Positions 1,809 to 15,573 of a stretch of DNA of 43,912 bases are shown here, piece after piece. The position numbers and the translations under genes are program-made. Position 1 is the stretch's first letter; every line of letters starts with the position of its first letter. The DNA lies in the NCBI GenBank assembly GCA_026395755.1, contig JAPLYC010000045.1:1-43912 (forward strand), read 5' to 3'. The stretch comes from Candidatus Parcubacteria bacterium. GTDB lineage: Bacteria; Patescibacteriota; Patescibacteriia; CAIXNZ01. The notes beneath the pieces were generated by a model. That model ran no database searches. It was not told the DNA's origin and was given only the letters and a program-made list of their open reading frames with translations.

Positions 1809-2867
1809 TTAGTTACCTTTTTTAATTTTTTGCAAAATTGGTTTAAATTCTTCCATGCCAAATTTATTTAAATATTGGCTCATAACACCGGCACAATTTT
1901 TTGTGTAAATACAAACTTGGCATTTATCTGGCTTTTTTCTTTGTTCAATCTCCTCGTTTTCATTTGTATGAAAATATTTCGGATAATTTGCCAAAAAACA
2001 TAGCGGAAAACCGCAAATCCCCTGGAAACCCATAAAATGTAGATCTTTACCTTGATATTTGTCCAATAATTCTATCAGCCTGGGGACAACTTCTGAATAT
2101 TTAATTAAACAATCATCTTTTCCCTTATCATTCATGCCGATAGCTGACAGATATAAACCCAAAGGACGGATAGAACCGAATTTTTGTTTGATAAATTTCA
2201 GATAATCCTCCAGAATATCAAAGTTATAATGGTTAATTACGCAGTTTAAGGCTATATAGTTCTGTCCCGTAGAAAAAACATTAAGCAAACCCTTAATAAC
2301 CAGATCGTAATTATCTTTAGTCCCAGTAATCAAATCATAAATATTTTCTTGATGAGAATGAAAAGAAACAAAATATTTAACTCTCTTTTCTTTGCTAAAG
2401 GGTTTAACATTTTCTTCCCTGGACAAAAGAACTGCGTTTGTTTGGACTGTAATTTCAGATTTTTTATCTTTAAGTATATATCTTATTAATTTAATGTAAT
2501 CAGGATGCAAAGTCGGTTCGCCTCCCGTTAAGATAAATTCTTTATTTTGAGCTGAATAACTGGTATTTATCTTGTCTATTATTTTTTTTAATTGCGCAAA
2601 ACTAAAAAAGTTTGAACCGGTATTATCAATCGGGCAAAAAATGCAATTCTGGTTGCAGCTACGGCTTATCCTTAAAAAAATTTTAATATAATCGGGATTT
2701 TTCGCGCTGATTTCCAAAAACTCCGGCAATCTTTTAATTCTTTTGAATTCCTCCGCAGACAAATTAATTATTTTGTCAATCAAAACCGCGCATCTTCCTG
2801 ATTGCCAGTCTTGCTTACTAATTTTCCCGATTAAATATTTAATGGCCAGAAAATATCTTGTTGTCAT
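1809..2867 (-). CDS. Radical SAM protein, array member 1 (352 aa)
   Basis: Radical SAM enzymes bind a 4Fe-4S cluster through CxxxCxxC and cleave SAM to a 5'-deoxyadenosyl radical. Here the motif is CNQNCIFC (Cys71, Cys75, Cys78), followed by TGGEPTLHP, the SAM-binding GGEP region. About 60 residues precede the motif, longer than in the sister genes. The C terminus carries CQVCIYTKNCAG, a CxxCxxxxxCxG arrangement shared across the array and likely to bind an auxiliary Fe-S cluster. An FG-x-EEF-KPI tail follows. The substrate is not known from sequence; location in the Hxs locus suggests peptide modification (inference). It ends 8 bases before the decayed paralog. Confidence 0.85.
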   Translation of the reverse strand: MTTRYFLAIKYLIGKISKQDWQSGRCAVLIDKIINLSAEEFKRIKRLPEFLEISAKNPDYIKIFLRISRSCNQNCIFCPIDNTGSNFFSFAQLKKIIDKINTSYSAQNKEFILTGGEPTLHPDYIKLIRYILKDKKSEITVQTNAVLLSREENVKPFSKEKRVKYFVSFHSHQENIYDLITGTKDNYDLVIKGLLNVFSTGQNYIALNCVINHYNFDILEDYLKFIKQKFGSIRPLGLYLSAIGMNDKGKDDCLIKYSEVVPRLIELLDKYQGKDLHFMGFQGICGFPLCFLANYPKYFHTNENEEIEQRKKPDKCQVCIYTKNCAGVMSQYLNKFGMEEFKPILQKIKKGN

Positions 2868-2897
2868 TTTATTTCGTTAATATGAATATCAAAATAC

Positions 2898-3797
2898 TTA
2901 TTCCTTAATAACCGGATTAAATTCATCCCAGCCGTATATTTCTGGGTATTCTTTCCAGGGGCCCTCACAGTCATTAAAAAATTTACATTTCTTACATTCT
3001 TCTCTTTTTACCTTGCCTCTGATAGTACGATATTCTTTATAATTTTTAAGCAGTCCGTCGCCGTCATAAATCTGTGTTTCCGGAATTTGTTTTTCAGCTA
3101 TGTAGTACCCATATCCTTGCATTAAACAATACGGGATAGCTTCAGTCATGACTCGTTTATTTGCCCTTATCCCAATATCTAATCCCCTTTTAACAAATGG
3201 CATCACATCAGTCTTCCGAGGCACAATCCATTCTTTATTTTTTGCGGCAGAGCCAATAATATGAACGTACGCAAACTGAAATTGATCCACGTTCAGCTCA
3301 ACCAGAAGATTAGCTATGCTTGGTAAATCTTGATAATTTTTTGTAGTAATAACTGTATTAGTCAGCACATGTGCTCCTAGTGATTTTAAATTTTTTATAC
3401 CGCTGACTACCTGCTGCCAAGATCCGGGGCTACAGGTTAATTGGTCATGAATTTCGGTAGTGGAACCGTGTAAAGCTGGCGAAAATTCATTGGCTCCGGC
3501 ATTTATGATTTTTTGGCAAAAATCCTTATAGGCAAACATTCGGCCATTACTTTGTATTTGGATGACTTTAAATCCTAAACTTTTAGCATACTCGACTGCC
3601 CTGATAAGCTCAGGATGAATTGTAGGTTCACCCCCTGTAAAAACAACCTCATCGCAGCTATCTTTCTTGGCACTGGCCAAAGCTTCTTTAATATCATCAA
3701 GGTCTCTGCCCTGATACTTAAAACGTTTATCGCCTTGGACGCAAAAAGCGCAACAATTATTGCAATTAAATATTATTTTTATATCGACTCGAGACAT
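2898..3797 (-). CDS. Radical SAM protein, array member 2 (299 aa)
   Basis: A compact radical SAM enzyme. The cluster motif is Cys12-x3-Cys16-x2-Cys19 almost at the N terminus, followed by FTGGEPTIHPELI. The barrel contains SNGRMF and ALHGSTTEIHDQLT, the block also preserved in the decayed copy at 1296-1800. The C-terminal CKKCKFFNDCEG motif probably holds an auxiliary cluster, followed by YGWDEFNPV. It is the best intact template for reconstructing the decayed copy, so the two probably arose by local duplication. It starts 7 bases after the swivel-domain gene and is translated in the same operon. Confidence 0.87.
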   Translation of the reverse strand: MSRVDIKIIFNCNNCCAFCVQGDKRFKYQGRDLDDIKEALASAKKDSCDEVVFTGGEPTIHPELIRAVEYAKSLGFKVIQIQSNGRMFAYKDFCQKIINAGANEFSPALHGSTTEIHDQLTCSPGSWQQVVSGIKNLKSLGAHVLTNTVITTKNYQDLPSIANLLVELNVDQFQFAYVHIIGSAAKNKEWIVPRKTDVMPFVKRGLDIGIRANKRVMTEAIPYCLMQGYGYYIAEKQIPETQIYDGDGLLKNYKEYRTIRGKVKREECKKCKFFNDCEGPWKEYPEIYGWDEFNPVIKE

Positions 3798-3804
3798 ATA
3801 GATT

Positions 3805-4719
3805 CTATTTTATATTGTGCTTATAATTTAAACTCCATGGCTTAATTAGTCTTACCAAATTATTATTTGAATCTATTTCGATCTTATCGCCATTTTCAAA
3901 TGTAAAAAGCGCATCCTCAACGCCGACCAGACAAGGGATCCTGAATTCACGGCAGATAACTGAGGCATGAGACAAAGCGCCCCCCATCTCAGTGATAATA
4001 CCCTTGGCTTTTAACATCGCCGGCAACAATGCCGTGTTTGTTGATTGCATAATAATTATTTCATAACTTTTTATATCAATTGGCAAGCCAATCTCATAAT
4101 TAAATAGTAACCTTGCCTGACCGTTGGCATTCAGCTCATTTACCGCCGAACCGGCCAAAACTTTTTTACATTTTTTATTTCTTTCTTGCTGTAGTTTATC
4201 CAATTCATTTAATATTTCTTTATTTTTCATATATAGTGCGTACAAGACTAACCTATCTCTTAATTTCAACAGGGTTTGATATTTATTATAGGCCTTACTT
4301 TCTCTAGCGTCTTCAAGATCATGTTTTAATTTTTTTGCGTGATAGAAGGGGGAAGTTTGCAGAAAGGAAGTATTTCCGTCCAAATTTACTTTTTCGCTCA
4401 GACTCAAAAATTCATAAAATTCCTTTTTGGATACGGCTTTCATTTCAATTTCTAAATATTTTTTCAAATACTCAACATACTCCTGCAAATATGCGGATCC
4501 TTTGGGTGGTAACACTTGCTGCCCCGTCTTCACTGGCCAAGGGATTCGGTAGTCTTTTATGATTATATGGGTTTCCGTAGAAGTATGCATTTCCTCCAAA
4601 TATTTTTTGTCAACAAATTTATCAATTATAATCCAATCGGCTGGCATAATACCCCATCCGGAAAACATAGCTAACATTTTAAGTATTTTATTTTTTAGTT
4701 CTGTTTCCGTTAAATACAT
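3805..4719 (-). CDS. PEP-utilising-enzyme swivel (phosphohistidine) domain protein
   Basis: The C-terminal third matches the mobile phosphohistidine domain of PEP synthase, PPDK and related phosphotransferases. It has an AGSAVNELNANGQARL block, then GGALSHASVICRE with the putative phosphorylated His (about residue 251 from this start), RIPCLVGV and FENGDKIEID. The N-terminal two thirds are helical and charged, and no ATP-grasp or PEP-binding barrel is apparent, so the usual phosphoryl donor and acceptor domains are missing. An in-frame TTG at 4752 would add 11 residues but overlaps the upstream gene by 26 bases; ATG 4719 is preferred. It lies inside the radical SAM array with 7-base gaps on both sides. 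Such a domain in a RiPP locus is unusual; its role is unknown. Confidence 0.8.
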   Translation of the reverse strand: MYLTETELKNKILKMLAMFSGWGIMPADWIIIDKFVDKKYLEEMHTSTETHIIIKDYRIPWPVKTGQQVLPPKGSAYLQEYVEYLKKYLEIEMKAVSKKEFYEFLSLSEKVNLDGNTSFLQTSPFYHAKKLKHDLEDARESKAYNKYQTLLKLRDRLVLYALYMKNKEILNELDKLQQERNKKCKKVLAGSAVNELNANGQARLLFNYEIGLPIDIKSYEIIIMQSTNTALLPAMLKAKGIITEMGGALSHASVICREFRIPCLVGVEDALFTFENGDKIEIDSNNNLVRLIKPWSLNYKHNIK

Positions 4720-4726
4720 TGCTAGA

Positions 4727-5494
4727 TTAATTAGATTTAAATTTTTCTCCAAGCCTTTTTATATAATAAAAATACCAACGTTCAAAATCTTTATTAATAT
4801 TTTCATGACAAAAATCTAGAAATTGTTTAGCAATATCGTATGTTTCTCGGCACTTAAAATTGCAAAAATAATGCATGAACAAAGGCCAAATATTATTAAC
4901 CAACGGGCATTCATGGTTTTTGATTCGTTTATTATCCATCCAGCGCCGATCGATTGAGACCTCGTCGAATTTACCGTTCTTAAGAACATTTTTGTAATGG
5001 TTTTTTACGCAACATGCGGGATAGCCAAGATATAACCCCATTCCCAAACAAGCCTTGGGGTTTGTGGTATATGAATTCTCAAATTGAATGAACCTTTTTA
5101 TCTCTACTGTAGATGCCGCGGCGATAACTATATTATTTCTTTTCTTGAGCTTATGTCCATATACGCATTGTTTATTTTTATAATAGATAACTTCCGCACC
5201 GTTTATTTGTTTTGGAGGATGTTTTCGTGCATTATCTTTATATCTGACAACAACGACCTTCAATCCTAACTTATTATATTTATTAACTAAATACTTAGCC
5301 TGGGTCAAAGTTAATAACTCCTGTTTGATAACCTTTCTTTTAGTTTGGGTTAACAAAATATAATCAAGATTAAGATTTTTAAAAACTTTCTTAATTTTTT
5401 TAAAATCATACCCATTAATATTACCGTTGCAGATATCAAAATAATCGCAAGTCAGTTTCATTATCGGACAATATCTTGTATTTTTTATGGTCAT
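4727..5494 (-). CDS. DUF483-like protein with GYPxCC motif (255 aa)
   Basis: Not a radical SAM enzyme: no CxxxCxxC motif. The central block LGMGLYLGYPACCVKNHY (GYPACC at residues 157-162) resembles the signature of DUF483-family proteins, small proteins of unknown function. A later HYFCNFKCRETYDIA segment supplies further conserved-looking Cys. Additional Cys at both ends (for example CPIMKLTCDYFDIC near the N terminus) could coordinate metal. Its start overlaps the end of the upstream radical SAM gene by four bases (ATGA), suggesting translational coupling. Family assignment is from memory of the motif and is moderate; function is unassigned. Confidence 0.6.
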   Translation of the reverse strand: MTIKNTRYCPIMKLTCDYFDICNGNINGYDFKKIKKVFKNLNLDYILLTQTKRKVIKQELLTLTQAKYLVNKYNKLGLKVVVVRYKDNARKHPPKQINGAEVIYYKNKQCVYGHKLKKRNNIVIAAASTVEIKRFIQFENSYTTNPKACLGMGLYLGYPACCVKNHYKNVLKNGKFDEVSIDRRWMDNKRIKNHECPLVNNIWPLFMHYFCNFKCRETYDIAKQFLDFCHENINKDFERWYFYYIKRLGEKFKSN

Positions 5495-6420
5495 AATAAT
5501 TTGGAAGTTTTAAAAAAATCAGCCCAGCCGAAAACCTTTATATATCCTTTCCAGACACCTTCGCAACTATTATTATAATTACAAGCTTTACATTTTAAAT
5601 GCTTTGTCTTCAAGGAATTTTTCCTCAGCTTTTGCCAATTAAATCTTTGCCGAATACCTTGCGGATTATTATAACCAATCACATCGGTATTAAAATCATG
5701 ATATTCCCCAATGTATTTTAAGCTATTTTTGTGCATTAAACAAGGCGGTATGCCGTCAAAGGCCACATTATATCCCTGGCTATTAGCTGAGGCTATAATC
5801 TTATCAATTTGCGGTATAAAATCCTGGTATTTTAGATACAAATCCTTATATTTTTTTGCTCTGCCGCGTATCCACATAAAATTCAGCCGGAAATCCCTGA
5901 CGCTCATCTCATGATAATATGACAAGGTTTTTAATAAATCCAAATAATTTATTTTATTTATTACCAAATTAATGGAAACGGGATGCCTGATCAGCCCCTT
6001 ATTGTAGAAAAATATCAAATTTTTTATCCCCTGTATTTTTTCCCCAAATCCGCCTTTGACTTGAGTCAGCTCATCCTCGATATTTGACTTATGGCTATGG
6101 ATGGAAACAGAAAAACGGTTTGCGCCGGATTCAATTAATTTAGCCAGAAATTTTTTATCCTCAAACTTTCTACCGTTGCTGATGATATGGACAATTTTAA
6201 ATTTTAGTAATTTACATAAATGCAAAATTTTATAAATCTCCGGATGCAAGGTAAATTCCCCGCCTAAAAATCCAATGGATTCAAAACCCTGCTTTTTTGC
6301 CAAAATTATATCGAACTTAATTTTTTCAAAATCAACCATCCGGCGGGTATCGTGTTCCACCATGCAGAATTTGCAGCGATTATTGCAAACATCGCCAATA
6401 TTGATATCAATATTTTTCAT
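5491..6420 (-). CDS. Radical SAM protein, array member 3 (about 309 aa, GGEF variant)
   Basis: ATG 6420 was chosen because it overlaps the stop of the upstream gene as ATGA; a longer frame to 6468 would overlap by 52 bases. The cluster motif is CNNRCKFC (Cys12, Cys16, Cys19). The SAM-binding loop reads LGGEFTLHP, with Phe in place of the usual Pro of GGEP. The barrel has SNGRKF and SVSIHSHKSNIEDELTQ, and the C-terminal motif is CKACNYNNSCEG followed by VFGWADF. It is a sister of the 2898-3797 gene by these shared blocks. Substrate unknown; probably acts on a peptide or protein of this locus. Confidence 0.85.
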   Translation of the reverse strand: MKNIDINIGDVCNNRCKFCMVEHDTRRMVDFEKIKFDIILAKKQGFESIGFLGGEFTLHPEIYKILHLCKLLKFKIVHIISNGRKFEDKKFLAKLIESGANRFSVSIHSHKSNIEDELTQVKGGFGEKIQGIKNLIFFYNKGLIRHPVSINLVINKINYLDLLKTLSYYHEMSVRDFRLNFMWIRGRAKKYKDLYLKYQDFIPQIDKIIASANSQGYNVAFDGIPPCLMHKNSLKYIGEYHDFNTDVIGYNNPQGIRQRFNWQKLRKNSLKTKHLKCKACNYNNSCEGVWKGYIKVFGWADFFKTSKLL

Positions 6421-7286
6421 AATATTTCCCCGAATAAGCCTAAATACTCGGTATCTATCCCCGGGCAAATCATGTCCAAATTACATCCGCAGCATTTTTT
6501 AATTTTTCGCTTTAATCTGCCCGGCTTTTCTTTTTTCATATTATAATCATAAATATCCCTGTCCATAGTAAACAATTCATCGGCCAAATAATAATCATCA
6601 CCCAATAAGCAAAAAGGAACTTCAGCGAATCTAACTATCATTTTATTTTTATGTCCATACTCAATCACTTTTTTAATTACCGGCTTAATACTGCCAAAAC
6701 TCACTGCATATGGTTTATTATGATCTAAAATTTCCATGCTGGTAAAATTCACCTCCTTGATATTATTTTTATTGATAAACTTTATGATATTCAGTAAATC
6801 CTTATAATTATAAAGATTAATGACGCAATTAGCCTTTAATAAACGACCCTTAAAATATATCCCTACATTCTTTAAAGCCTTTACCAGATTAGCATACAAC
6901 TGTTTATTTTGGGACAACTTGGCAAATAACTTTTGATTGTGGCCGTAAATTGATATCACCAATTCATCAATTAAAGGCAGGGCTTTTTGAGCAATATTTT
7001 TATCTGCCAGATAAAAACCGTTTGTAGCCAGCGCCGTGGTAAAATTCAGTTTTTTTGCCGTCTGCAATATATCAACGAAATTATCTTCAATAAAAGGCTC
7101 TCCGCCTAAAAAATTAATATATTTGTAGCCTTTTTGTGCATAGAAGCTTAAAGTATTGAAAACATCCCGGCTATCCTTAAAAGCAGACAAATCCTTATGC
7201 TTCTGCCGGTTATCTTTCTGAATGCAAAATACACAGTCATTATTGCACTTATATGTAATAAATAATTCCAATTTGTTTTCTGGCAT
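6417..7286 (-). CDS. Radical SAM protein, array member 4 (289 aa)
   Basis: The shortest intact member. The cluster motif is CNNDCVFC (Cys14, Cys18, Cys21), with LGGEPFIEDNF as the SAM-binding loop and ATNGFYLADK following. The barrel includes ELVISIYGHNQKLF and NCVINLYNYKDLL, the latter block repeated in several paralogs. It ends soon after CCGCNLDMICPG with only a short FGEIL tail, so the usual EF-P extension is lost. It overlaps the next gene by four bases. Confidence 0.85.
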   Translation of the reverse strand: MPENKLELFITYKCNNDCVFCIQKDNRQKHKDLSAFKDSRDVFNTLSFYAQKGYKYINFLGGEPFIEDNFVDILQTAKKLNFTTALATNGFYLADKNIAQKALPLIDELVISIYGHNQKLFAKLSQNKQLYANLVKALKNVGIYFKGRLLKANCVINLYNYKDLLNIIKFINKNNIKEVNFTSMEILDHNKPYAVSFGSIKPVIKKVIEYGHKNKMIVRFAEVPFCLLGDDYYLADELFTMDRDIYDYNMKKEKPGRLKRKIKKCCGCNLDMICPGIDTEYLGLFGEIL

Positions 7287-7296
7287 CTTAATTAAT

Positions 7297-8232
7297 TTAG
7301 GATTTTAAAATCTTGCTGATAATTATTTGCGGGTCAATTGTTTGCGGCTTTAATTCCGAAGCATCATAATATTTATCCGCGGCATACAAGCCGGCACAGA
7401 TATCTTTTAAACTGCAACTATTGCAAATTGGCACTTGGGGATATTTAAATTGATCGGAATTTTGCAGCATTTGTTTTCTTTTATCCAAAAAAATTATGAT
7501 TCTGCCTTCATCCTTCACCCTCTTTCTGGTTTCCGTTGAATATTCAGCAAAATCCAACATATAGCACAGAGGCACTCTTTCAACCCGAAAGGTTCTGCCT
7601 GCTAATTTTAATATTTTCAACGCCTTATTTAAACTCGCCTTGAAATCACTTAATTTAGGAATTACCTGGATATTTTCCGAAGCCCGATTCATAAACGGAT
7701 CCAAGTTATTAAAAACAAAATGTTTTATATAGGGGAAATTTCTTAAAATGAAAATAATATATCTGTCTAGATATTGAGCATTGTATTTACTAATAACACA
7801 ATTTATATTTACTTCAATATTATAATCGGCTAAATTCTTTAAAGCTTTAATTATATTAAGGTAAGATTTCGGATTTTGCGATAAATAATTTTGTATTTTG
7901 GGCTTATACGAATAAAATGATAAATGTAAGTGTTTCAGCCCTGTTTTTACCAAATCGCTCAGATACTTTTTGTCGGATAATTTCTGACCATTGGTAATAA
8001 TCCGGCAAGCTAAACCTTTTGACAAAGTGTATTTAATCAATGAAAATAATTGCGGATGTAAAGTCGGTTCACCTCCGGTAATAATAATCTCTCTTGTACC
8101 CCGCTCAATCAAATCATCAAGCTGTTTTTTAAATATTGCGACCGTCATTTCCTTAAAATTCTCCGGGTTGGAACAAAAAAGACAATTCTGATTGCATTTT
8201 CTGATAATCTGAATGTAATTTATTTTGGCCAT
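7297..8232 (-). CDS. Radical SAM protein, array member 5 (311 aa)
   Basis: Starts at ATG 8232; a TTG two codons upstream is possible. The cluster motif is CNQNCLFC (Cys13, Cys17, Cys20), with ITGGEPTLHP and ITNGQKLSDK next. The barrel has HLHLSFYSYKPKIQNYL and VNINCVISKYNAQYL. The C-terminal Cys group is CNSCSLKDICAG. Closest by eye to member 1 in the first motif. It begins about 8 bases after the upstream gene, so it is co-transcribed. Confidence 0.86.
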   Translation of the reverse strand: MAKINYIQIIRKCNQNCLFCSNPENFKEMTVAIFKKQLDDLIERGTREIIITGGEPTLHPQLFSLIKYTLSKGLACRIITNGQKLSDKKYLSDLVKTGLKHLHLSFYSYKPKIQNYLSQNPKSYLNIIKALKNLADYNIEVNINCVISKYNAQYLDRYIIFILRNFPYIKHFVFNNLDPFMNRASENIQVIPKLSDFKASLNKALKILKLAGRTFRVERVPLCYMLDFAEYSTETRKRVKDEGRIIIFLDKRKQMLQNSDQFKYPQVPICNSCSLKDICAGLYAADKYYDASELKPQTIDPQIIISKILKS

Positions 8233-8240
8233 AATCAAAA

Positions 8241-9449
8241 TTACCTTATTGGCTTTAATATCTTAAATCCCTTGTTCCTTATTATATCGATATGAACACC
8301 AGCACAGTCATCAAAATGACTACATTGACGGCAATTTATACTTTTCAACTTATATAATTTTTCCTGATAAAAATTCATAATTTCCTCGATATTCCTACTT
8401 GGATATAAGTCATTCAATGATGAATTTCTTATTTTTTTATTGGCTATAGCTAGACAAACCGGAAGATCGTAAACAAATTGGTCATCTGGGCCTAATTGCT
8501 TAATCTTTTTTGATTTATCAGGAACCAAAACATATTCGTGCAGTTTTTGGCATAAATCATAAAAATTGCACAGTTTACAGCGTTGTTCTTCCTGCTTACA
8601 CGCAAAAGGCTTTTTATTATTTATCAAATCGTTGATCTGGCCAAGCCGCCCCCTGGCTTCGTCTATTATCTTCTTAGGATCCTGGATAAGGTCCTCATAA
8701 CCCTCTAAATATTCAGCCGGGAATCTGTTTAACCAGATAAAATAATCTTTATTTTCCCGATAAAAGTCCAGTACTGCTTTAATATATTTAAAATCCTCAT
8801 TCAAATCGAAAAATATTTCGTCTTTATTGTCATAAGCGCTGCCAAATGGCACGGGATATAGTAAATCATATTCATACACACCGTATTTTTCACTGTAATA
8901 CTTAATGGTATCGAGTAATCCTGTGACATTTTGTTTATTTATTACGATGTCAATGTTAATAATCGATGGAACTTTCAATAATCTAGAAATTTTAATAATA
9001 TTGGCCAGACCTTGCTGCGCTTGTTGTCCGGCACCCTTTTTGCCGTATAATTTATCTTGAATATCAAAACGATGCGAATGCAACGATAAAGTAAACTCAT
9101 CAACCCCCAATTTAATACAATTTGTGGTAAATTTAGTATCAGCAAACATTCTTCCGTTGCTGATTATCTGGACTTTTTCGAAATTATACTTTCCAATTAA
9201 TTTTAAAATGGCAAACAAGTCAGGATGTACTGTCGGATCGCCGCCGCTTATCACTATTTTATTATAATTGCCCTTCTGTGCCAAAGCCAAATTCCGGTCT
9301 ATTTCATCAAGCCCAAGATGATAGTTCTTACGATTTTCCTTATCAAGACAAAACAAGCAATTGTTGTTGCATTGCTTGGTTATACTAAGCCAGTATATTT
9401 TGTATTTATCAATCGCGGCTTTTTTTACGAACAAACGTTCATCTTTCAT
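8241..9449 (-). CDS. Radical SAM protein, array member 6, with two C-terminal Cys clusters (402 aa, GGDP variant)
   Basis: The longest array member. The cluster motif is CNNNCLFC (Cys27, Cys31, Cys34) and the SAM loop is SGGDPTVHPDL, with Asp replacing Glu. SNGRMF and SLHSHRFDIQDKLYG follow. An insertion contains a first Cys group (CKQEEQRCKLCNFYDLC), then about 65 residues, then the terminal CRQCSHFDDCAG group. It could therefore carry two auxiliary clusters, as SPASM enzymes do. It could also be a partial duplication of the C-terminal region. Gap to the next gene is a few bases. Confidence 0.85.
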   Translation of the reverse strand: MKDERLFVKKAAIDKYKIYWLSITKQCNNNCLFCLDKENRKNYHLGLDEIDRNLALAQKGNYNKIVISGGDPTVHPDLFAILKLIGKYNFEKVQIISNGRMFADTKFTTNCIKLGVDEFTLSLHSHRFDIQDKLYGKKGAGQQAQQGLANIIKISRLLKVPSIINIDIVINKQNVTGLLDTIKYYSEKYGVYEYDLLYPVPFGSAYDNKDEIFFDLNEDFKYIKAVLDFYRENKDYFIWLNRFPAEYLEGYEDLIQDPKKIIDEARGRLGQINDLINNKKPFACKQEEQRCKLCNFYDLCQKLHEYVLVPDKSKKIKQLGPDDQFVYDLPVCLAIANKKIRNSSLNDLYPSRNIEEIMNFYQEKLYKLKSINCRQCSHFDDCAGVHIDIIRNKGFKILKPIR

Positions 9450-9458
9450 ATATTAATA

Positions 9459-10376
9459 CTATTTAATATCGGCAGCAGTTAACTTTTTAAATTCAGAATC
9501 CCCAAATATTTTCAAGTAAGCTTTGATAACACCATTACATTGCTTCCTGGCCAGATAGCCGCATTTATTGCACAAATTAATTTTCTGTTTGCACATTATC
9601 GGCGAATATTGCTCCTTAGTTACACAGCCGTGTTTGCCGATATTGAACTCATTATTAGTCGCGCATTTGGCCAGGCGCCTGGTTTTCAATACCGGAAATT
9701 TCCTTAAAAGGCAGGGCGGGATATCAAAAGCCTGAAACTTCATCTGATCATGGTTTTTAAGTATTTCCTCAAGGATCGGAATCGACTCTGAAAAGCGCAC
9801 ATTGTAATTTTTATTAAGTGAATCAATATAAATAAAAATTACTCTTTTTATGCCTAATCGGTCAAGTTTTGCTATTGTTTTTCCTAAATCCTTAATATTC
9901 AGCTTGCTTACAACTATATTTACAAAAAAAAGAAAATTCAGCTTCAATAGCAGCGCCAAAGCAGAATAAACCTTGGGTAAATTTTTAGATTTGGTAATTC
10001 TATTATATACAGACTCAGTTGCTGAAGGTAAGGAAATGAATATTTTTAAATATTTATTATAGGGCAGCAGTTTAGCTAAATATGAGGCGTTTAGCAGTAC
10101 TCCATTTGTATGAAAGCTGATATAATCTATCCCGTTATTTACCGCGTAATCAATAATTTTAAATATATCACGGTTTAAAGTGGGTTCAAATCCGGTCAGG
10201 CACATCTCATTGGTATATTTGCTGAAAATTCTAATGTATTTCATGATCAGCTTAGTATCAGTCAAAATTATGGATTGAAAAAGCTTATCCTTATCAGGCT
10301 CATGGTTAAGGCAGTACAGACATTTATTCTGACATTTATCACTGCAAACAAACACTATATTTTTCTTAATTATCAT
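9459..10376 (-). CDS. Radical SAM protein, array member 7, altered SAM-binding loop (305 aa)
   Basis: The cluster motif is intact (CQNKCLYC; Cys15, Cys19, Cys22, with an extra Cys11). The loop that normally reads GGEP is LTGFEPTLNRD: the second Gly is Phe. The Glu that contacts SAM is kept, so activity may remain. The C-terminal Cys group is CNKCGYLARKQCNG, one residue longer in its second spacer, followed by FGDSEFKKL. Its ATG overlaps the upstream stop by four bases. Confidence 0.83.
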   Translation of the reverse strand: MIIKKNIVFVCSDKCQNKCLYCLNHEPDKDKLFQSIILTDTKLIMKYIRIFSKYTNEMCLTGFEPTLNRDIFKIIDYAVNNGIDYISFHTNGVLLNASYLAKLLPYNKYLKIFISLPSATESVYNRITKSKNLPKVYSALALLLKLNFLFFVNIVVSKLNIKDLGKTIAKLDRLGIKRVIFIYIDSLNKNYNVRFSESIPILEEILKNHDQMKFQAFDIPPCLLRKFPVLKTRRLAKCATNNEFNIGKHGCVTKEQYSPIMCKQKINLCNKCGYLARKQCNGVIKAYLKIFGDSEFKKLTAADIK

Positions 10377-11434
10377 ATATATTTTTTGACTAAATTTATA
10401 ATTTGCTTTTCCATGAAGGCGGCATTGGCAAATAATTCTGCGGAAAATTTTCCGCTACTCAAATCAAAGCCGTAACATATCTTATGGCAAGAGCGGTCTT
10501 CATCACACTGGCCGCAAACAAACTTGTTAACCGCCACATTAATAATACCTTTTTCGCACATTTTAAAATCCAAAAGCTTTTTTATCAATACCTTATTTAC
10601 TTTGCCGCTTAAAATATTGGCAATAATATATTTTTTCTTTAATGCCGGCGGTAACCCCACGAAAAATTCACAGGGGTAAATATCGCCATCTGGGTCGATT
10701 GATAACTCATCCATAATAATAGAACAACTTTTATTCTTTTTCTCCATAACACGGCGCACATCATCGATTAATTTAAAACTAATTTTCGCTCCCTTGGCCT
10801 TCAAATATTTAATTAATTTTAAAACTTTTGATAGGTTATTCAAATATTGATCAACTTTATTTTTTTCCCAATAAAAGCCCATGGCCGGCTGAACATTTAT
10901 ATTCCTAAAACCCAAGCTGACCAATTGCTTATAACAATAAAAAAAACTATCTGCATATTCCGGCATAATAGTCATCTTTATATTTATAAAGTCTTTATAT
11001 TTTAAGAGTAATGGTAATTTCTTATTTAAAGCTTCAGTTTTCCTGAACTTATAATCCTTAGCAAAGGAATCGATACTGACGCAAAAAAAAGGAAAATTTT
11101 CAACCAAAAATCTTAATTTTTCTTCAGTCAGCAAGCTACCGTTAGTAGTCAAACCTAAATATATTTTTTTCTTATATTTTTTTCTAAGCTGCTTAACCTT
11201 TTTTGCTATTTTTACCAGCAAATCATACCTCAAAAGGGGTTCGCCGCCAAAAAAATGAATAGACCTATCCTTACAGTGATTATATTTAAAAAACAATTCC
11301 AGTATTTTATCCAACGTTTTAACATCAAATTCCTTTTGCGCCTTTTTTGAAACATTACAATACTGACATTTAAAATTACATCTAAAAGTCAGAGGGATTA
11401 CTAATCTCTGAATATTTTCCAGTAATTCCTTCAT
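10373..11434 (-). CDS. SPASM-type radical SAM protein, array member 8 (353 aa)
   Basis: The cluster motif is CNFKCQYC (Cys19, Cys23, Cys26), with FFGGEPLLRYDLL and TTNGSLL. It differs from the other array members: the C-terminal half has IDPDGDIYPCEF and then CGQCDEDRSCHKIC, the layout of SPASM/twitch auxiliary-cluster domains found in peptide-modifying enzymes such as sactionine and PqqE-type maturases. It is the first radical SAM gene of the tandem array in transcription order, 27 bases after the membrane-anchored Cys-rich protein. Of the array it is the best candidate for a true peptide maturase besides HxsB (inference). Confidence 0.85.
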   Translation of the reverse strand: MKELLENIQRLVIPLTFRCNFKCQYCNVSKKAQKEFDVKTLDKILELFFKYNHCKDRSIHFFGGEPLLRYDLLVKIAKKVKQLRKKYKKKIYLGLTTNGSLLTEEKLRFLVENFPFFCVSIDSFAKDYKFRKTEALNKKLPLLLKYKDFINIKMTIMPEYADSFFYCYKQLVSLGFRNINVQPAMGFYWEKNKVDQYLNNLSKVLKLIKYLKAKGAKISFKLIDDVRRVMEKKNKSCSIIMDELSIDPDGDIYPCEFFVGLPPALKKKYIIANILSGKVNKVLIKKLLDFKMCEKGIINVAVNKFVCGQCDEDRSCHKICYGFDLSSGKFSAELFANAAFMEKQIINLVKKYI

Positions 11435-12396: not shown

Positions 12397-12699
12397 TTAT
12401 GATGCTGAACAGCAGCTATTTCCATGATGACCGTGAGAGCCATGAGACCCATGACTGCCATGTGAGCCATGTGAGCCATGACTACCATGGGAACAATGTG
12501 ATCCCTGAGTGCCTTCATTGTGAATAAAATTATTATGGCCAAAATGGCGAGAACCGCTACGGACTAAATCATAGGCATGACCGCCTTTACCACCGCTATC
12601 AGTCGCTCCTGCGGGATTCTCACCATGCAGGCAGGGAGGAGCTGCCGCATTAGCTTCTTCCGCCAAAATACCCAAAGCAGTCACGCCTATTCCCAGCAT
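12397..12699 (-). CDS. hxsA: HxsA-like RiPP precursor: His-Gly-Ser repeat peptide (core-encoding frame)
   Basis: The frame from ATG 12699 encodes 100 residues: a hydrophobic helix ending in an Ala-rich c-region, a Gly/Ser/His-rich middle, then one HCS and six HGS triplets, HGH, HGN and a CCSAS tail. Tandem His-Xaa-Ser repeats beside a SPASM radical SAM gene and HxsD define the Hxs class of ribosomal peptides. An upstream leader (from ATG 12842) would make a 129-residue precursor but is disrupted by a 56-bp duplication. ATG 12699 is preceded by AAGAAGGA, a fair ribosome binding site about 7 bases away, so internal initiation is possible. The modification is not known; His, Ser or Cys side chains are possible sites. 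Confidence 0.8.
   Translation of the reverse strand: MLGIGVTALGILAEEANAAAPPCLHGENPAGATDSGGKGGHAYDLVRSGSRHFGHNNFIHNEGTQGSHCSHGSHGSHGSHGSHGSHGSHGHHGNSCCSAS
12415..12495 (-). repeat. 9-bp His-Xaa-Ser codon repeats in the precursor
   Basis: Nine consecutive triplet codons: HCS, six HGS, HGH and HGN. Ser is coded by AGT, TCA and TCT and Gly by GGT, GGC, GGG and GGA among the HGS and adjoining units, so the repeats differ in DNA while agreeing in protein. Confidence 0.85.
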
Positions 12700-12866: not shown

Positions 12867-14354
12867 TTATTTGGCAACCTTTACCGGCGGCTTGGCTCGT
12901 TTGGCCCAATCCAAGAAAATATCCCTGTTTTTTTTGTTGTGCAATTTAGTAAATAAATAATCGATAATCTGCTCATCAATTTGCCATTTGTAATTATTGG
13001 CCATTTGCGGAAATATGTTGCCGTGTAAAGAATAATTATAAACGGGACAAGTGCCCCAATACGGCTGGTAAACATTATCGCCGTGTCCGGCCAAGCCGTT
13101 TGTGCAGGAAGCCAGACAAATTGATTTGCACAAATTATTATTAATTAGCTGTTCAAAGGTATTGCTATTGACATTGCCTAATTTAAACATCTCGTCGCCC
13201 ATGCGAGAAATCATCCTGCCGTCATCACAAGTATAAATATCGCCGTTATAATTATAAGCCAATTGCCCGATAGCCGCCCCACAGGGTGAACGCATGTCCA
13301 AATTATGAGGTTCTTCCTGCAATAAAATTTTTCTCAGATAAGTTACGGCGGCAGTCTCCAGAAAAAGCTTACCCTGATAATTTTTTCCCAAAATATAATC
13401 CAGTGTCTTTTTATAAAAATCTATGTATTCTTCCGGCGTATACCAGATTTTTTCCTTGGCATTTACGGCAAAACCGTAAGGATTTAGATAGCGCAGATAA
13501 ATCGATCTCAGCCCCAAATCAATGTAAGTATCAATCACTTTCTTGTAATTGGCTAGGGTTTTACGGGTAACAGTAATTAAAGCTCCGACATTATAGTAAT
13601 TCTTCTTTTTGCCTTTATACTTTTGCGCATAAATTTCCTTGATTTTTTTAATCCATTTTACTGTTTCCGCGAAACTATTGCCGTCTGCATAGATGCGATT
13701 AAAATTATGAGTTTCCTCATCGCCGTCCAATGAAGTGCAAAAATGTACCCCCTTTTCCATAAGAAAATTAATTTTTTCGTCATCCAATAAACTAAAATTT
13801 GAAACCAATCTGAACTGCAAATTCTTTTTTTCCAGCCTATTTTTTTCACCGGCATACTGAATAATAAATTTAACCACCGGCCAGTTCAATAGCGGCTCCC
13901 CGCCCTGAAACTCAATAGCAATAGCATCATTGGTAGTTTTAAAGATCATGTCCACAATCTTTTTTGCCGTAGCCAAATCCATGTCTAAATTTTTATCTTT
14001 GCTATCTCCGGCACTGGCATGGCAATAAATACATTTATGATTGCAACGCAAGGTAACCACGATAATATGCAAAGACGGCCCGAATTTCAAAAAACTGTTT
14101 CTTTCTCTATATTTTTCAACCAATGTAGGCACATAAGCCTCATCTTTAATAAATAGATTAGCCTTTAACTCTTTATAAATTTTATTTTTGGAGCTCAGCT
14201 TACCGGTAATAAATGCTTTAAAATCATTCTCCTTAAGAAAAACATACTGCCCCACCTCATTGGTCAATAGATAATTATCAGCATCAAATTTCTTAAAGCG
14301 AAAATATCCGACTGACTTGGCGTCTAGTTTGTTTATTGTTTGTAGATCCAGCAT
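12867..14354 (-). CDS. hxsB: His-Xaa-Ser system radical SAM maturase HxsB
   Basis: A 495-residue enzyme. An N-terminal domain of about 90 residues contains GYFRFKKFDADNYLLTNEVG, typical of HxsB-like maturases. The radical SAM core has CNHKCIYC (Cys104, Cys108, Cys111) and FQGGEPLLNWP. The C-terminal SPASM region includes CGAAIGQLAYNYNGDIYTC, GNVNSNTFEQL, then several Cys (CKSICLASC and GTCPVYNYS) for auxiliary clusters. HxsB is thought to modify the His-Xaa-Ser repeat peptide. It sits directly upstream of the precursor gene (24-base gap to the original start). Assignment rests on architecture plus neighbours. Confidence 0.85.
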   Translation of the reverse strand: MLDLQTINKLDAKSVGYFRFKKFDADNYLLTNEVGQYVFLKENDFKAFITGKLSSKNKIYKELKANLFIKDEAYVPTLVEKYRERNSFLKFGPSLHIIVVTLRCNHKCIYCHASAGDSKDKNLDMDLATAKKIVDMIFKTTNDAIAIEFQGGEPLLNWPVVKFIIQYAGEKNRLEKKNLQFRLVSNFSLLDDEKINFLMEKGVHFCTSLDGDEETHNFNRIYADGNSFAETVKWIKKIKEIYAQKYKGKKKNYYNVGALITVTRKTLANYKKVIDTYIDLGLRSIYLRYLNPYGFAVNAKEKIWYTPEEYIDFYKKTLDYILGKNYQGKLFLETAAVTYLRKILLQEEPHNLDMRSPCGAAIGQLAYNYNGDIYTCDDGRMISRMGDEMFKLGNVNSNTFEQLINNNLCKSICLASCTNGLAGHGDNVYQPYWGTCPVYNYSLHGNIFPQMANNYKWQIDEQIIDYLFTKLHNKKNRDIFLDWAKRAKPPVKVAK

Positions 14355-15093: not shown

Positions 15094-15573
15094 TTATTTT
15101 CCCTTCTTCCCTTTTCCCCTTTTAGCTCCTCTAGCTCTTTTACCCTTATCAGATTCCTTTTGATCTTCCCAGGGCTTACTTATCCCCAAAGGATCCTCCT
15201 GCCAATCTTCCTCCTCAACTTCTTTTAATAACTCATCAACTTCATTGGGTACGGCATTATAAAGCGCCTGAGATACAATATATTCCCTAATTTTTGCATT
15301 AGTCAGACTCACTTTTTCCCTTAATAGCTGATTTAAAAGCTCATTATAAAATTCTCCTGCAATTTTCTCTAAACCTCCTGCGTCTTCTTTAGACTTCATA
15401 ATTACTTTAATTTCCTTTTTCGGATCCCCATCCAAAAAAACATAAACTTTATCCAGAAAGAAATAAGCGGCCTGATATATAGCTGCCACTGAATATATTT
15501 TGGTATTTATGGTAAATTTTATTTCACCTTCTTTTTCTTTAATTTCCTGCCTAATACCTGGTTTATTTTTCAT
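15094..15573 (-). CDS. hxsD: His-Xaa-Ser system protein HxsD
   Basis: 159 residues. The core (about 15-115) has TKIYSVAAIYQAAYFFLDKVYVF, then FYNELLNQLLREKVSLTNAKIREYIVSQALY, the strand-helix and terminal-helix pattern of HxsD. After it comes an acidic stretch (VDELLKEVEEEDWQED) and a basic Lys/Arg/Gly tail, which usual HxsD proteins of about 100 residues lack. HxsD is a small partner protein found with HxsB and HxsC; its biochemical role is not established. It lies between the secreted LamG protein and the short HxsD-like gene. Confidence 0.75.
   Translation of the reverse strand: MKNKPGIRQEIKEKEGEIKFTINTKIYSVAAIYQAAYFFLDKVYVFLDGDPKKEIKVIMKSKEDAGGLEKIAGEFYNELLNQLLREKVSLTNAKIREYIVSQALYNAVPNEVDELLKEVEEEDWQEDPLGISKPWEDQKESDKGKRARGAKRGKGKKGK

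Follow-up and report, generated by a model that had tools for sequence, protein, structure and literature searches.

Why is a protein with a phosphohistidine swivel domain encoded in the middle of a run of radical SAM genes, and which enzyme could supply its phosphoryl group? The window, by which we mean the whole stretch of 43,912 nucleotides analysed here, forms contig C120 in the 1.46 Mb draft genome of a tiny uncultured bacterium of the Patescibacteria; in a pattern scan of named-species genome contigs, the named relatives closest to it are MAGs of Parcubacteria and Falkowbacteria. A sequence-only reading had drawn attention to the swivel gene and to a neighbouring gene for a Cys-rich protein, and its interpretation of the pair turns out to be partly right.

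The array around the gene pair

By its HxsB and HxsD matches, both of which exceed their cut-offs (Table 1), the locus is an Hxs locus, and the two genes do lie inside it as the earlier reading had placed them. On the minus strand the order is HxsD, HxsB, an HxsA-type precursor, a protein that by inspection has a membrane helix at its N terminus, six radical SAM genes, the Cys-rich gene, the swivel gene, two further radical SAM genes and finally one that is broken. The run is operon-like: most intergenic gaps do not exceed 30 bases, and there are overlaps between several of the genes. The swivel and Cys-rich genes are both intact frames on this strand with radical SAM genes on either flank, and besides HxsB the array holds eight intact radical SAM genes, one of which (2898-3797) has counterparts in eight other genomes at 51-71% identity. 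None of the genes scanned passes the cut-offs for HxsC, the best scores being 117.3 against 267.9 (TIGR03977) and 167.1 against 500 (NF038332) in a scan of array members other than 6417-7286. The HGS repeats and the position of the precursor fit HxsA although it misses the NF038313 cut-off, which the HxsA precursor of a relative (G008) passes with 82.6 bits. The array probably makes a chemically modified peptide.

The radical SAM gene at 1296-1800 is broken by a frameshift and an internal loss, and G004 seems to have an intact counterpart of it (L026:2026-2877). In five genomes of the family the array is followed by a prepilin-peptidase-related membrane protein (A24; 2-1432 in the window); for the corresponding protein in G004 the A24 match is below cut-off.

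Table 1. Features of the array, with window coordinates and the evidence for each.
Feature	Position	Strand	Evidence
Two radical SAM genes downstream of the pair (2898-3797, 1809-2867)	1809..3797	-	PF04055
Swivel protein, 304 aa, probable start ATG 4719	3805..4719	-	ortholog starts; model residues 1-10 with pLDDT <50
Phosphohistidine swivel (PEP-utilizers) domain	3841..4152	-	PF00391, 69.4 bits, cut-off 23.1; residues 230-296 of the long frame
Phospho-accepting His codon, motif TEMGGALSH	3967..3969	-	His invariant in 28 aligned swivel domains
Three-helix stretch from N domain to swivel	4171..4350	-	helices 135-151, 155-175 and 178-194 in the model
N-terminal alpha/beta domain, weakly nucleotidyltransferase-like, catalytic Asp pair absent	4351..4719	-	AlphaFold2 models, structure search
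Cys-rich ORFan, 255 aa ('DUF483-like')	4727..5494	-	reading frame, Pfam, searches
GYPACC motif	5009..5026	-	sequence
Six radical SAM genes upstream of the pair (10373-11434, 9459-10376, 8241-9449, 7297-8238, 6417-7286, 5491-6468)	5491..11434	-	PF04055 in each
HxsA-type precursor, HGS repeats	12397..12699	-	NF038313, 29.4 bits, under cut-off 55
HxsB radical SAM/SPASM maturase	12867..14354	-	TIGR03978, 515.7 bits, cut-off 370
HxsD	15094..15573	-	TIGR03976, 61.1 bits, cut-off 50

The second protein of the pair is Cys-rich and carries the GYPACC motif, as had been seen from its letters, and by inspection this motif and the further Cys residues suggest metal binding. Its assignment as DUF483-like does not hold: the DUF483 model (PF04467) gives 14.9 bits, or 15.9 in the genome search, against a gathering cut-off of 25, and it stands between equally weak matches to TFIID_NTD2 (16.3 bits) and PfaD_N (14.2 bits), likewise below cut-off. 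DUF483 candidates in 12 other genomes of the phylum all fall below the cut-off as well, no relative of the Cys-rich protein was seen at the three DUF483 loci that we opened (G640, G484, G503), and papers on DUF483 proved uninformative. No convincing relatives were found in 57 related genomes, the 381 genomes of the class, viral contigs, plasmids, phages or PHROGs; a match in G004 (E 8.5e-4, 69 residues) is to an unrelated ORF of 116 aa outside any array. We treat the gene as an optional member of the array.

The swivel protein and its N-terminal domain

The swivel frame is open from a TTG at 4752 (315 codons, 3805-4752, minus strand). A Pfam scan of the protein finds nothing above cut-off besides PF00391, in agreement with the earlier remark that it has no recognisable kinase or PEP domain: ATP-grasp is absent from the chain, a PEP/pyruvate-binding barrel was not found in it by Pfam, and there is no ATP-grasp gene in or near the array. 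The His-containing loop, also recognised earlier, is retained as TEMGGALSHASVICRE (codon 3967-3969). Within the motif T/SxxGGxxxH the T/S and the second G vary among the orthologs (L005 C, L004 S), and the His, the Arg-Glu pair that follows it and the frame are all intact in three divergent orthologs. The PigC and RedH models score 50.1 and 44.7 bits on the window protein, and the swivel is C-terminal in these models and in that of Rph. This placement would suit a phospho-activating ligase subunit like PigC/RedH, which would activate a group that is then joined to the peptide, leaving no phosphate behind, but the matches are limited to the swivel, the substrate domains differ and no second substrate is known, and we consider such a role quite improbable.

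The full-length AlphaFold2 model (23 sequences; pLDDT 90.9, pTM 0.81) consists of an N-terminal alpha/beta domain, three long helices and the swivel domain, the last of which superposes on rifampin phosphotransferase 5hv2 (1.5 A over 105 columns) and also matches pyruvate phosphate dikinase. Modelled alone (8 sequences), the N domain reaches a pLDDT of 90.4. Its best PDB matches, to the nucleotidyltransferase toxin MenT1, are weak (E 0.014-0.11, with TM 0.37 at E 0.014), as are those to an AbiEi antitoxin and to poly(A) polymerases (E 0.25-0.34); a viral structure library returned weak matches only, poly(A) polymerases among them, and sequence profiles of the domain gave nothing usable against the PDB. 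Equivalents of the nucleotidyltransferase residues hG[GS] and Dx[DE] are absent. We take the N domain to be a probable nucleotidyltransferase-like fold, though not a catalytic one as such; it is not an ATP-grasp. The suspicion that the N terminus hides a nucleotide-binding fold finds weak support: the fold is confident and its best PDB matches are mostly to nucleotidyltransferases, but E is 0.014 at best and the Asp pair is missing.

The lack of hG[GS] and DxD residues could also be taken, together with the broken radical SAM gene in the same array, as the mark of a degenerate relic or of a regulator without phosphotransfer, in which the N domain would bind a ligand through a dead nucleotidyltransferase fold. 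Conservation of the His, the Arg-Glu pair and the frame across such divergent orthologs argues against this, and we regard it as very unlikely.

Distribution of the orthologs and the candidate kinase

A profile of the three orthologs finds full-length members in 3 of the 381 genomes of the class (G000, G004 and G007, with 537, 521 and 470 bits), and the next match reaches 93 bits and is C-terminal only. All three genes, each from a draft genome, lie inside radical SAM arrays and adjoin an ortholog of 2898-3797, and a prepilin-peptidase-like gene follows them directly or after one to three genes. The full-length orthologs are 31-42% identical to the window protein, so that they must have been separated for long. 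The scan of named-species contigs returned the same two relatives and one C-terminal match of 83 residues in Crocinitomix. HxsB occurs in 9 of the 381 genomes, and G007 has an array with no HxsB match, making ten genomes with such arrays; in seven of them (G002, G005, G006, G008, G279, G303 and G331) the array has no swivel gene, from which it follows that the swivel protein is not needed for the core pathway. The hypergeometric probability for the co-occurrence of swivel gene and array is 1.3e-5, but it is no proof because all three genomes come from one family.

A profile of the N domain adds five more distant proteins, all of which also contain a swivel domain (G027, G068, G266, G288 and G327). 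No radical SAM genes were seen near them in the 12.8-19.5 kb read, the gene in G027 standing at a contig end, with a radical SAM profile that does score in the array loci. In a tree of eight rows the array proteins form one group (support 98/98) beside G068, where 2.6 kb separate the carrier gene from that of a stand-alone ATP-grasp. Homologs in the looser sense therefore do occur apart from radical SAM genes, both as these five proteins and as the swivel domain itself, which is common outside radical SAM loci, but full-length orthologs are found only in arrays. Likewise, the co-occurrence with radical SAM arrays that had been named as a check for both genes holds for the swivel orthologs, three of three, but not for the Cys-rich protein, which was found only in this genome among those searched.

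The class contains many dispersed swivel carriers, and in some genomes the first-look candidates number 20 to 42. One locus (L028:3259-18159, in G000:C68) has eight swivel-carrier genes in tandem with a single stand-alone ATP-grasp gene.

With up to 42 such candidates in one genome, many Patescibacteria carriers in unrelated loci and five proteins that share the N domain where no radical SAM gene was seen, the array protein might be a dikinase carrier whose job is unrelated to the peptide, phosphorylating a small molecule and merely riding in the array. We find this unlikely, given that three orthologs as different as these have all stayed in arrays and have kept the same radical SAM neighbour.

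In all three genomes with an array swivel, stand-alone ATP-grasp is encoded elsewhere: G000 has two such genes, beside carriers, and G004 has one. In G007 the one PF00391 match of the genome is the array protein and the one PPDK_N match is an intact stand-alone ATP-grasp gene of 318 aa, and searches with these two models reveal no further partner for the one or the other. A second genome of this genus, G003, has the same ATP-grasp gene in the same surroundings (the proteins are 83% identical, that of G007 being full length), followed there by a 378-aa carrier of which G007 shows no remnant between the flanking genes. Since the sole carrier of G007 is in the array and its sole PPDK_N gene has no neighbouring carrier, the array protein is most likely charged in trans; this genome is a draft in 130 contigs, however, and a carrier missed by sequencing would weaken the argument for the pairing.

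In G008 no carrier adjoins the stand-alone ATP-grasp gene. Apart from PEP synthase this genome has one other small swivel protein, and G002 and G003 have proteins of its type. These proteins of about 212-251 aa (L127:2680-3324 in G008, L128:3205-3960 in G003 and L129:2821-3459 in G002) presumably begin with a part that resembles MazG enzymes.

A candidate carrier and the systems it resembles

The explanation that we favour, at a probability of roughly 0.6, is that the array swivel is the carrier half of a two-component dikinase of the HpeHI/PpsAB type, captured by the Hxs array and charged in trans. The array would have recruited the carrier once, from the abundant Rph/HpeH-like carriers of Patescibacteria. 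The carrier His would be phosphorylated from ATP by an HpeI-like, stand-alone ATP-grasp subunit of about 318 aa whose gene lies elsewhere. The charged swivel would then turn to its own N-terminal domain and deliver its phosphoryl group to a bound acceptor; an Hxs product or intermediate, perhaps HxsA, is the most likely one. We infer the physical pairing, the direction of transfer and the identity of the acceptor from the arrangement of the genes. The idea that the swivel protein works with help from another protein would be best explained by this separately encoded ATP-grasp.

A more specific form of the proposal is that the dikinase carrier has turned into a tailoring enzyme, which would phosphorylate or phospho-activate the His-Xaa-Ser peptide, the phosphate coming from a general ATP-grasp on which several dispersed carriers of one cell depend; we put it forward tentatively, as possible but doubtful. 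Decoration of the HGS-repeat peptide, with its serines as possible acceptors, is attractive but unproved, and the attraction comes from other kinases and glycosyltransferases that recur in sister arrays. APH-type kinases are found in the arrays of G002 and G004 (37.4 and 35.9 bits, cut-off 23.2), a GT9 glycosyltransferase in G002 (41.2 bits, cut-off 22) and a GT1 glycosyltransferase just below cut-off in G007 (25.8 against 26.4). Two radical SAM proteins have an extra C-terminal domain (L026:2888-4690 in G004, 600 aa, and L097:12815-14605 in G002, 596 aa), which is APH-like in G002 (22.1 bits, just below cut-off) and unmatched in G004, and the G005 array has one with an N-terminal P-loop domain by weak matches (L098:3480-5237). 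The recurrence of such enzymes makes the HGS-repeat peptide product a concrete target.

Two Hxs arrays also contain a gene pair on the opposite strand (L097:6256-7966, L098:1703-3422), and one of these genes in G002 belongs to the peptidase U32 family.

Should the carrier reading hold, the chemistry of radical SAM peptide arrays would come to include phosphotransfer by way of an ATP-grasp subunit that is shared and encoded apart from them, and the many orphan swivel proteins in Patescibacteria could be understood as carriers that a single kinase supplies. We found no report in the literature of a kinase-carrier pairing within peptide-modifying clusters, and the G007/G003 pair offers a direct and small test case of pairing in trans.

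Among known systems, the closest parallel is HpeHI, in which the carrier HpeH and the ATP-grasp HpeI are separate chains, the catalytic His motif T/SxxGGxxxH is the one found in the array swivel, and the carrier His is essential: H581Q in HpeH abolishes activity (PMC12167813). With HpeHI, CreHI and PpsAB (phenylphosphate synthase) our system shares a carrier with a C-terminal His swivel and a separate ATP-grasp of similar size. Unlike in HpeH, CreH and PpsA, the N-terminal part of the array carrier is about 190 aa, of another fold and without the large Rph-like substrate domain, and its gene lies in a peptide-maturation array rather than beside that of the ATP-grasp. The array protein is best read as a carrier that works like HpeH yet stands outside the HpeH family by its substrate domain. 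From Rph, whose swivel domain is superposable and also C-terminal, it differs in having neither ATP-grasp nor a rifampin-binding domain in the chain. PEP synthase, pyruvate phosphate dikinase and enzyme I have only the swivel domain in common with it, whereas their PEP-binding barrel, ATP-grasp and HPr-binding domain are missing from the array protein. As in the His-Xaa-Ser system, the window has an HxsA-type precursor, HxsB, HxsC-like enzymes and HxsD, but to the known Hxs set its array adds the eight intact radical SAM genes, the carrier and the ORFan.
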